Positions 28,379 to 31,810 of a DNA stretch of 64,000 nucleotides are shown one piece after another. The notes beneath the pieces are model-generated. The model did not search any database and had not been told where the DNA came from. It saw only the letters and a program-made list of their open reading frames with translations. Position numbers and translations under genes: made by a program. Each line of letters begins with the position of its first letter. Positions within the stretch are counted from its first letter, which is position 1. The DNA comes from Bifidobacterium sp. (GTDB lineage: Bacteria; Actinomycetota; Actinomycetes; Actinomycetales; Bifidobacteriaceae): assembly GCA_024104275.1 (NCBI GenBank), contig JAGGHK010000003.1, positions 1-64,000 of the forward strand. Direction: 5' to 3'.

Positions 28379-30648
28379 TCAGCGCTTCATGGCGAGGCGA
28401 CGACGGCGGGCGCCGACCACGATTGCGGTCATCCCGGCGACAAGGGCAGGAAGCAGGATACGGTGCCACCATTCGCTCGAGGCGTTGCCTCCGGTCATGG
28501 GCAGAGCGGTGACCACGGGCAATGTGGTGTCGAAGGTCGCTGCCGTTGAAACGTTGGGCTCACCGGTGCCTACCAGCGTCGGCTCATCGGCGGCCGGGGA
28601 ATCCTTTGCCTGCATCTGCGAGTCGCCTTTCAGCAGAACCCCACTGGGCACCGGTAACGTGAACGTGCCGTCGCCGGAACCTGAAACGGGACAGGTCGCG
28701 CCGGGAATATCGGCAGTACCGGAATTGCAGGTCAGCGTCGTAAAGGCGGTCGATGAACCGGTCGGCCAGGTCACCGTCACGCTGAACTTCGTTTCCTTGA
28801 CACGCTGATCCTGTTTGGTCGTATCCCCGGAACTCATGACAGTGCCAAACACCGTGCGCGCCCCCTTGTTGAACGCAGCTCCTTCAATCGCGGGAGCGAC
28901 CACATCAGCCGACTTGCCCGTAGAGAACACATAATCCGAATTGCCATTGGATCCTGTCACCAGTCTTGCTCGGAACACATACGGCATCCCCTGACCAATA
29001 TGGTCAGCATCAGATAACGCCAACATCGGGAACGTAGCGGACCAACTACATGATGTTGAGGAACACGACGTCGTGTCCAGTGTCACGTCATCCGCAGCCG
29101 CAGGAGTGCCATCACCTGGAACCGTCGAACCCGGACTATCCTTCGGCATCAGCGCGACCTCTATCTTGTCGCCAGCCTGCAAAGCATAGATTCCACCACC
29201 TTGTGGAACCGTACCGGAGACCTTTACCTTACCGGCTTCTCCACCGCCCATCCACGAGAACAACACGTCATTCGACACCGTAGGAGCTGGAACCCACACG
29301 CCATAAAGCGTCACATCATCAGTCGGCGTATAAGAACTGCTTAAAGAATATGTCGGAGAAGTGGCATTAGCATCCTCACTCCATCCAAGCAGCCGATAAC
29401 CGGTACGTGAAAAACCAGAACCAGAAGCCAACGTAACACCGGGATTATCGGGCCATCCGCCCTTGACTGTGTCAGCTGTCCCCGTTCCTCCATTGGCATT
29501 AAACGTAACAGAATAAGGACGACCGTACAACCTAGTCTCTGTGACACTAGGTATACCGTCAGTGTATGGCTTAATGGAGCAAGGACTGTCTTTACAAGAA
29601 AGCGTCACATCACGCCATGTTGTATCAGCTTCCCAATTAGGGTCGGTCGAACTGTTATCAGGAGTTCCGGCCCCATCATACACAAATGAATAGTATGGTA
29701 CATGGATATTCTTCGGCCATTTAATGAACCTGAGAGTCTGACCATCACCGGCAAAAATACCGTCAAACCCGTTATGTGTTTGCACTGACGAAAGATTCCA
29801 TCTAGACAAATCCAAAGATACTAATGATGGGCAATCTCTAAATATTTGATTGATGCTAGTTGCCCGAGACATATTCCAATACTCTATCCCAGTAATCGAT
29901 GAAAGTTTTTCATCACACTGAAACATTCCTTGGAAAAGGCCATGCTGTAGATTGCTTAAATCTAGCTTAGTAACATCTGCACTCTTTAGTTCCAACATAC
30001 CAATAAACAAGGCAGATACACATAATGCATACACATGAGTGGACACAATAATCTTCGTCACATTATTAGTGTAATACCACCCGCCATTAGGAGTATGTCC
30101 AATCCATGGAATCATTCGAACATTACCACCATAATTCGGAATTGTTCCGCTTTCGAGTTCAAGCACACAGTCATTGCCGTCACCGCTAAGTTGGATGTTA
30201 TAAAGTAGGGTTCCACCGGTACCCGTCCATGGCGTATGCAGCGGAACCGTATTGCACGTAACACCTTGCGGCGAAACAACCGGCGTGGTTTGTGGCGGAT
30301 CGGATTGAGGGGCTAGTTGTGCCGAATTATTCGTAACAGCGGAATCGGGCTGTATGGCAAGCCCCCCCCCCCGCTTGAATTTTCATCGGCAGGAGATACC
30401 GGACTTGAGTCAGATGAAGCGGAAGCGGCAGATGCAGAAGCCGAAGAAGGTTGTCCTTGAGCCGAAGAATCCTGATGAGACGCAGATTGCGAAGTCGCAG
30501 ATTCCTTGGAAGTTTCAGCAGAAGACTGCGACGGAGCGGATGCATCAGGGCTTCCGGCCGCGAACGCAGCGGGCTGGGCGATGCCGAACGATACGGCCAA
30601 TGCGACGAACCCCATCAGCAACCTGCCAACCGTCCTGCGCATACCCAT
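28379..30648 (-). CDS. LPXTG surface protein, BspA-like, split by a poly-G tract (phase-OFF)
   Basis: The N-terminal reading frame (30648 down to 30313) has a signal peptide ending AAFA and a Ser/Ala-rich linker, then runs through 11 G residues and stops 17 codons later. The downstream part is open in another frame from about 30382 to 28379. It carries a DUF285/BspA-like leucine-rich region (DVTKLDLSNLQHGLFQGMF), an InlB-type repeat (TFNANGGTGTADTV..TLYGVW), Ig-like stretches, the sortase motif LPMTG, a hydrophobic anchor and a basic RRRR tail. Adding one G (12) or losing two (9) joins the frames into about 756 residues. AGGGGAG precedes the ATG at 30648. The middle section (29.3-30.2 kb) is AT-richer than its surroundings. 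The likely role is adhesion. Confidence 0.8.
30362..30372 (-). repeat. Poly-G tract (11 G on the coding strand), phase-variation switch
   Basis: Eleven consecutive C on the plus strand lie inside the coding region of the LPXTG protein, just after the signal peptide/linker. Slipped-strand changes of tract length would switch the frame. 9 or 12 G give the full protein, and 11 G as here gives a truncated secreted peptide. Confidence 0.8.
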
Positions 30649-30994
30649 AACGACTCCCCTTCGCATACATCACAACCACAACATCAAACAACCCTGTAAG
30701 CAGTAACCAACCGATGCGATACTGCACACTCACTCTTCAACTATACACAACGGTGGTCACATTTTGCGCTGCATCTTCAAGTCATAACCCAAACAGCCGC
30801 CCATCAACACCGAACACCGCCGAAACAGGAGTTCCACAAAGCGAACCCGCCCATTCAACATGTAACCGCGATGCACATCGAGACGACAAGCGTATGCCCG
30901 AAAGACATAACAGCACGAACACAGCGTGACGGAAGTGAAATAACCCTTCCGACGCAACAGCCACTTTCCCAGCATTGTCTTCACGGGCACTTAG

Positions 30995-31117: not shown

Positions 31118-31810
31118 TCAGCCAAGGCGGCTGACGGCGGCGTGCTGGACGTCGGTGGCGGGATCGGAGGCCAGGCGGGCGAGCGTGGGTTGCGCTGTGT
31201 TGGGATTGAGGGCGACGGCGCGGCGGACCATCGCGGTGAGGACGGTTGGGGCCTTTTCGTCACTTTCTACACCCATCTTGCCTAGGAAATCAAGGGTTTC
31301 GGGGCTGGTACGCGGGTCCTCGGCGCCTTCGAGTCGCATCTTCCATGAGGTCTGCGGGTTGCGCAACGCGGCTTCGCGCACCCCGCGCACCTTATCTTTG
31401 GTGAGCCTGCCGACCAGCCAGTTCTTATCGGCGGTATTGGCGGCGACGGCCTTGCGGACCTCATCGTTGCCGTCCTCGGAAAGCTTGACCAGAATGTTCG
31501 GGAACGGCATGGTCTGGGCCAGGAAAATGCGGTCTTGAAGCGGGGTGTGCTGGTTGCCGGCCACCGCTTCGAGCAATGCCGTGGCACGCGAGAAAGCCGC
31601 CTGGTCGGACTTCGGGGGCAAGGGCTCGCGGGCGGCTGCGCTCAACTCGGCCGAATCGTCGGTATGCCGCAACTCTTCGTAGGTGTCGGTCAGCGGCTCG
31701 AAGGCGGAGCCGGCGTTCTGCGCGTTTGCCTCATTCGATTCCGCAGCTCCGGCGTTCTCGGGCGCATTGCCCTGCTCTTGGTTCGTTTCGTCCTGTTCCG
31801 TTTCGCTCAT
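31118..31810 (-). CDS. Variant leucine-rich repeat (LRV/HEAT-like) protein
   Basis: The 230-residue product has an acidic Asn/Glu/Ala-rich N-terminus (about 1-45). Helical repeats of about 25 residues follow, such as LVKLSEDGNDEVRKAVAANT, VRGVREAALRNPQTS and AVALNPNTAQPTLARLASDP. These resemble the variant leucine-rich repeat seen in actinobacterial proteins. No catalytic motif is visible, so a protein-interaction role is the safest inference. The C-terminus of the FHA protein at 61916-63730 has a related segment (MAKHPELLPFLAMNPSLYG). It stands downstream of the YigZ gene on the same strand with a 21-bp gap, so the two may be co-transcribed. Confidence 0.7.
   Translation of the reverse strand: MSETEQDETNQEQGNAPENAGAAESNEANAQNAGSAFEPLTDTYEELRHTDDSAELSAAAREPLPPKSDQAAFSRATALLEAVAGNQHTPLQDRIFLAQTMPFPNILVKLSEDGNDEVRKAVAANTADKNWLVGRLTKDKVRGVREAALRNPQTSWKMRLEGAEDPRTSPETLDFLGKMGVESDEKAPTVLTAMVRRAVALNPNTAQPTLARLASDPATDVQHAAVSRLG

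Follow-up and report, generated by a model that had tools for sequence, protein, structure and literature searches.

A surface adhesin gene of Bifidobacterium sp. was found to be split into two reading frames at a run of 11 G residues, and this gene is best explained as a slipped-strand phase-variable (contingency) locus that was assembled in its OFF state. We assign this reading a rough probability of 0.74. Beyond what had first been observed at the locus itself, the switch is apparently shared by a family of paralogues. If this is true, bifidobacterial phase variation extends past pilus operons to a multi-gene adhesin repertoire, and commensals would have a combinatorial surface code such as pathogens are known for. 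Many of the adhesin genes that are split would in that case be functional but switched off, not pseudogenes.

The adhesin gene is split at a G run

The gene occupies positions 28379–30648 on the reverse strand of the window, by which we mean the whole stretch of 64,000 nucleotides that was analysed. Its upstream piece (30376–30648, reverse strand) encodes a Sec-type signal peptide, recognised by eye, followed by a Ser-rich linker. The downstream body (28382–30358, reverse strand) encodes DUF285/PARCEL and Flg_new sequences, two predicted beta-sandwich domains and an LPMTG sorting signal. Translation of the signal-peptide frame from the ATG at 30648, which is preceded by a Shine-Dalgarno-like AGGGGAG on the same strand (30654–30660, by eye), proceeds through the linker to a stop codon at 30315–30313, 15 codons past the run; a second in-frame ATG is located at 30666. 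No stop interrupts the 667 codons of the body frame between 30382 and 28382, and the frame terminates at a stop codon at 28381–28379. The proposed slippage site is the 11-G run itself (30362–30372, reverse strand; 11 C on the forward strand), which puts a long simple repeat into the 5' part of the coding sequence, roughly 276 nt downstream of the ATG at 30648. The frame is broken at this run only and the body is intact through LPMTG.

The first-pass annotation of this DNA had reported a tract of 11 G, a signal peptide and linker in one frame and the body in another with the tract as the sole break, and restoration of the frame by 9 or 12 G. The count proved exact, the arrangement of the frames and the span of the gene were confirmed, and the arithmetic is right, as the site has a length divisible by three in both intact orthologues described below. 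G or C runs of at least 5 in the window comprised 25 of length 5, one of length 6, none of length 7 to 10 and one of length 11. Chance is therefore a poor account of the adhesin run.

Domain content and surface anchoring

Profile searches of the body returned DUF285 (PF03382; E-value 3.3e-6, 27.3 bits at a cut-off of 25) and Flg_new/List_Bact_rpt (7.5e-10, 39.2 bits at a cut-off of 27) from Pfam, as well as the PARCEL repeat TIGR02167 from NCBIfam at 30 bits, which is exactly the cut-off of 30. The List_Bact_rpt model of NCBIfam itself scored below its cut-off on the body, and no Pfam or NCBIfam family reached cut-off in the upstream piece. PF03382 was detected at E ≤ 0.01 in all 11 aligned members of the family, whose DUF285/PARCEL body we take to be BspA-like. 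A structural model of the body had a mean pLDDT of 83.2 and is consistent with a repeat region plus one small beta domain and a pair of beta-sandwich domains; the PDB matches of the model were middling. The C terminus consists of LPMTG, a hydrophobic stretch and RRRR (by eye), with a helix predicted at residues 630–657. All features of an LPXTG sortase substrate are accordingly present, namely signal peptide, LPXTG motif, hydrophobic stretch, basic tail and a sortase in the genome, with the signal peptide and the body placed in different frames in the assembly.

Genomic context

The genome comprises 2,164,548 bases on 19 contigs, with the adhesin gene on the contig designated C13. The gene for ribosomal protein L13 (27738–28184, reverse strand; PF00572) lies directly downstream with that for S9 on the same side, and a gene for a HEAT/LRV-repeat protein (31121–31810, reverse strand) lies upstream. 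A similar HEAT/LRV gene was found upstream of the homologues in four relatives, here called G087, G090, G092 and G093. Sortase (PF04203) matched at six places in the genome, five of them above cut-off, on contigs C15, C1 and C11. No sortase match was obtained on C13, and neither a sortase nor a pilin adjoins the adhesin gene. A bifidobacterial sortase-dependent pilus cluster was considered for the locus and rejected, since the sortase matches lie on other contigs and the neighbours are L13/S9 and the HEAT/LRV gene, with no dedicated sortase or pilins among them.

Scanning named genomes with the body yielded one named relative, Bifidobacterium bohemicum DSM 22767, at 58% in the best segment, and it is with B. 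bohemicum that the own genome groups. B. bohemicum is a bumblebee species, and judged solely from this relative the host bacteria are probably insect-associated.

Tract length and frame in orthologues

A search of 112 genomes of the genus, the own genome included, was performed with the adhesin, and at most 10 candidates per genome were scored, which makes all family sizes lower bounds. Matches at E ≤ 0.001 were obtained in 41 of the 112, again including the own genome. Tract lengths at the site differed among relatives and both intact and split states were observed. In place of the 11 G found here, the homologues of G092 and G087 carry 9 G, split in the former and in frame in the latter. The G090 orthologue reads GAGGGAGGG, an interrupted run of 9, and the G093 orthologue has 6 G. 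These two orthologues lie behind the similar HEAT/LRV gene and each forms a single intact frame, and that of G093 also precedes L13. A paralogue on contig C14 of the own genome, left out of the site alignment, has 7 G and is split at the run. Copies in B. bohemicum contain 9-G and 10-G runs together with further breaks.

Long runs recur at the signal-peptide junction of the family

Frame state was tabulated for 24 copies in which both the signal peptide and the body could be anchored, drawn from the own genome, G087, G090, G092 and G093. A G or C run of at least 7 was present between signal peptide and body in 19 of these, 17 of which are split there and 2 of which are in frame (one of 10 outside G087). 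The five copies that have no such run are all in frame. The 19 include the G087 copy at 948k, where a separate look gave 9 C, as its anchored row starts inside the run. Copies standing outside the table are C13:110k, C15:93k, C17:15k, C16, C13:191k, C11:941k and C19 of the own genome, three places in B. bohemicum, G087 1718k, G090 446k, G090 1864k and G092 C2 240k. Loci L092–L095 lie outside the frame analysis, and loci L016–L039 were scanned for runs only.

Seven of the copies outside the table were classed by hand. Three of the own genome were scored as broken, C17:15k and C15:93k for having no in-frame signal peptide and C13:110k for an inner stop. C11:941k, in which signal peptide and body are in frame and the far C terminus is apparently out of frame, was scored as in frame, as were G087 1718k, G090 1864k and G092 C2 240k. 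Over the resulting 31 copies the frame was broken in 17 of 19 with a run versus 3 of 12 without one (Fisher p 0.0005), and with G087 removed in 9 of 10 versus 3 of 11 (p 0.008); both p-values are too kind because the copies are related and the classing was partly done by hand.

The presence of a long run is not distinctive by itself, since the genus abounds in long G runs, with a 10-G match in 108 of the 112 genomes. Runs of at least 9 were located at the family junction in 2 of 8 cases in the own genome, 3 of 6 in G092, 2 of at least 7 in G093, 8 of 25 in G087 and none of 2 in G090. A rough binomial estimate for junction runs gave 4e-5 for the own genome, 3e-8 for G092, 2e-5 for G093 and 4e-17 for G087, where the gene numbers and the 300-nt windows used are rough and the C extension rate is inflated by the adhesin run itself. 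In G087, 24 of 25 G/C runs of at least 9 were called as exactly 9, which resembles a base-caller cap. The lengths in that genome are apparently capped and its frame states are therefore doubtful, its run positions not. The same doubt over length applies to a near-identical pair of G087 paralogues with 9 C versus 8 C.

Proposed switch and repair background

In the mechanism that we propose, translation would begin at the ATG at 30648 and every cell would make the signal peptide. The length of the G run would change by slippage during replication. One third of lengths would bring the body in frame and give a cell-wall-anchored BspA-like/InlB-repeat adhesin, and the other lengths would give only a short secreted Ser-rich peptide that ends about 15 codons past the run. 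The assembled genome would represent the OFF state. With the same device behind the signal peptide of many paralogues, cells of one population would show different subsets of the family. The first-pass annotation had described the locus as a poly-G switch caught in the OFF frame. This holds as the best reading, given the junction run in 19 of 24 copies with 17 of them split, but the reversible change in length, and with it expression, anchoring and adhesion at this locus, is what we infer from assembled sequence.

The repair background was examined in six genomes. NucS was found in all of them and mutS1 in none, the control for the mutS1 search being positive in 11 of 14 known genomes. NucS repair cannot correct indels according to the passages drawn on from PMC8228993, in which short indels are said to be possibly suppressed by DnaE proofreading. 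The switch reading fits a background of this type, lacking mutS1 and with NucS leaving short indels uncorrected. G/C runs of at least 8 in the own genome comprise five of length 8, none of 9, five of 10, one of 11 and two of 12.

Constraint on split copies and alternative explanations

One alternative is a permanent loss, in which a single slip created a young pseudogene with a body no longer under selection. Decay is present in parts of the family. The split copy on contig C3 of the own genome has an extra in-frame stop and its body ends after 149 aa, several breaks occur in the B. bohemicum copies, and C17:15k, C15:93k and C13:110k, none of which has a run of at least 7, are broken all the same, so that some family members are decaying. 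Against loss as the general explanation, the body is open to an (L/M)PXTG motif in 11 of the 17 split copies and as far as the fetched sequence reaches in 4 more (one of them over only 26 aa), and G093 295k has 871 aa of open body but no such motif. Pairs that include a split copy had body dN/dS values of 0.20–0.33, not different from those of intact pairs (0.21–0.30), at saturated dS (0.96–1.76). The split bodies hence show no sign of relaxed selection at the sequence level, though a recent loss would look alike, having left dN/dS unchanged so far. We consider permanent loss of the adhesin gene unlikely.

An assembly miscount, with a true length that is in frame and a gene that is ON, is less probable still. 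G runs are difficult to sequence, the run lengths of Penno et al. deviate from the database genome in the passages drawn on (PMC9187656), and the G087 lengths look capped at 9. The own assembly nevertheless has runs of 10, 11 and 12, so no length cap is visible there, and the calls range from 9 to 11 in G092 and from 9 to 12 in G093. A miscount would furthermore leave the occurrence of runs at one junction across the whole family unaccounted for.

Leaky decoding is the least probable. Here −1 frameshifting by the ribosome, or slippage of RNA polymerase, would yield some full-length protein from OFF templates, and the run would tune its amount with no switch. For 13 of the 17 split copies the body does lie in the −1 frame, which a −1 slip would reach, but 7 of these 13 are in G087 with its doubtful lengths and the share outside G087 is about even (6 of 9). 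No RNA structure that might stimulate frameshifting was conspicuous (z −1.39, with 17 of 200 shuffles folding equally well), and transcription in B. breve drops behind the first ORF in the passages drawn on from PMC9187656.

Relation to known systems

The kind of switch is already known from bifidobacterial pilins, from tract-associated InlB/LPXTG genes of Gardnerella, a member of the Bifidobacteriaceae, and from poly-G in PARCEL lipoproteins of Mycoplasma. Poly-G slippage in bifidobacterial sortase pili, which the first-pass annotation had named as known, has experimental precedent in the pilin genes bbr_0113 and bbr_1889 of B. breve UCC2003, which contain G runs of 11 and 10 (8–13 across the strains of Table 1 in PMC9187656). 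In the parts of that paper relied on here, run length varies within a population and shifts in mice (PMC9187656). The adhesin resembles these pilins in having the G run between a signal-peptide ORF and an LPXTG ORF and in belonging to the same genus. It differs in being a single-gene locus with no adjoining sortase or pilin, in its DUF285/InlB-repeat body and in having several paralogues per genome.

In Gardnerella, proteins with which tracts of at least 8 are associated include InlB B-repeat, LPXTG and GA-module proteins, and in this respect the tracts are like the adhesin run; length variation was seen by Sanger sequencing in one GA-module gene, and ORFs have about 70% of the G/C tracts upstream of them and about a quarter of tracts inside (PMC11287997, in part). 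A single paralogous family whose members have a run at a fixed signal-peptide junction, the case described here, does not appear in the passages drawn on from that paper (PMC11287997).

PARCEL/DUF285 lipoproteins of Mycoplasma agalactiae carry poly-G tracts (passages of PMC2996958 and PMC2824730), and phase variation of the DUF285 (drp) family as a whole is called unlikely in a passage of the latter (PMC2824730). In contrast to the adhesin, these are lipoproteins of wall-less bacteria and not sortase substrates. The Opa proteins of Neisseria gonorrhoeae, which are outer-membrane proteins, are unrelated to the adhesin and use a five-base repeat. Up to 11 opa genes are each switched by the number of repeats that their coding sequence contains, so that the surface can take on many combinations (PMC11287997, in part).

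LPxTG proteins with Flg_new plus RCC1 are reported in honeybee bifidobacteria, in a paper whose text makes no mention of phase, frameshift, homopolymer or BspA (PMC4449606). None of the matches listed from the open-access literature presented this adhesin family as phase-variable, and the scale of the multi-gene switched repertoire is possibly new. Extending the reading to the whole family, paralogous BspA-like LPXTG adhesins in B. bohemicum-related bifidobacteria may each have an independent G/C slippage switch behind the signal peptide, allowing many adhesin combinations per clone, and enzymes of the GH32 and arginase families may share the device such that surface and sugar use vary together. 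We would put even odds on this extended proposal.

Other long runs

Eight runs of at least 10 are found in the own genome, of which two belong to the adhesin family (C13 and C3). A 12-G run (C11:531326–531337; L042:3827–3838) splits a gene of the GH32 (fructosidase-type) family, with profile positions 40–175 of PF00251 before the run and 180–307 after it, followed by PF08244; this run is a possible sugar-enzyme switch. A second gene is split at a 10-G run (C11:187008–187017; L041:3009–3018), where the later piece matches the arginase family (PF00491) and the earlier piece has no Pfam match. Another 10-G run lies inside the signal peptide, assigned by eye, of a large surface protein with no Pfam match (C18:15239–15248; L051:3740–3749), which is in frame locally and changes frame some hundreds of bases further on. 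The run at C11:823k lies close to where a small ORF begins that looks phage-like by eye. The runs on C15 and C17, of 12 and 10 (L046:3960–3971 and L050:3638–3647), are apparently intergenic, the latter upstream of an ORF that by eye resembles an ABC-transporter ATPase, and both are possible promoter-spacing runs.

Long runs were also noted in the relatives. In G092 (C1:10137; L085) a Ser-rich open frame of 790 aa, to which no Pfam family matched, starts at a 9-G run. In B. bohemicum DSM 22767 there are 122 nine-G positions, compared to 5 to 26 in four other relatives, and four runs of 9–10 on both strands surround the start of the adhesin. An internalin-like LRR surface protein of G093 (C2:710965; L087) has 9 G close after its signal peptide and is in frame, and may represent another family of surface proteins that uses this device.
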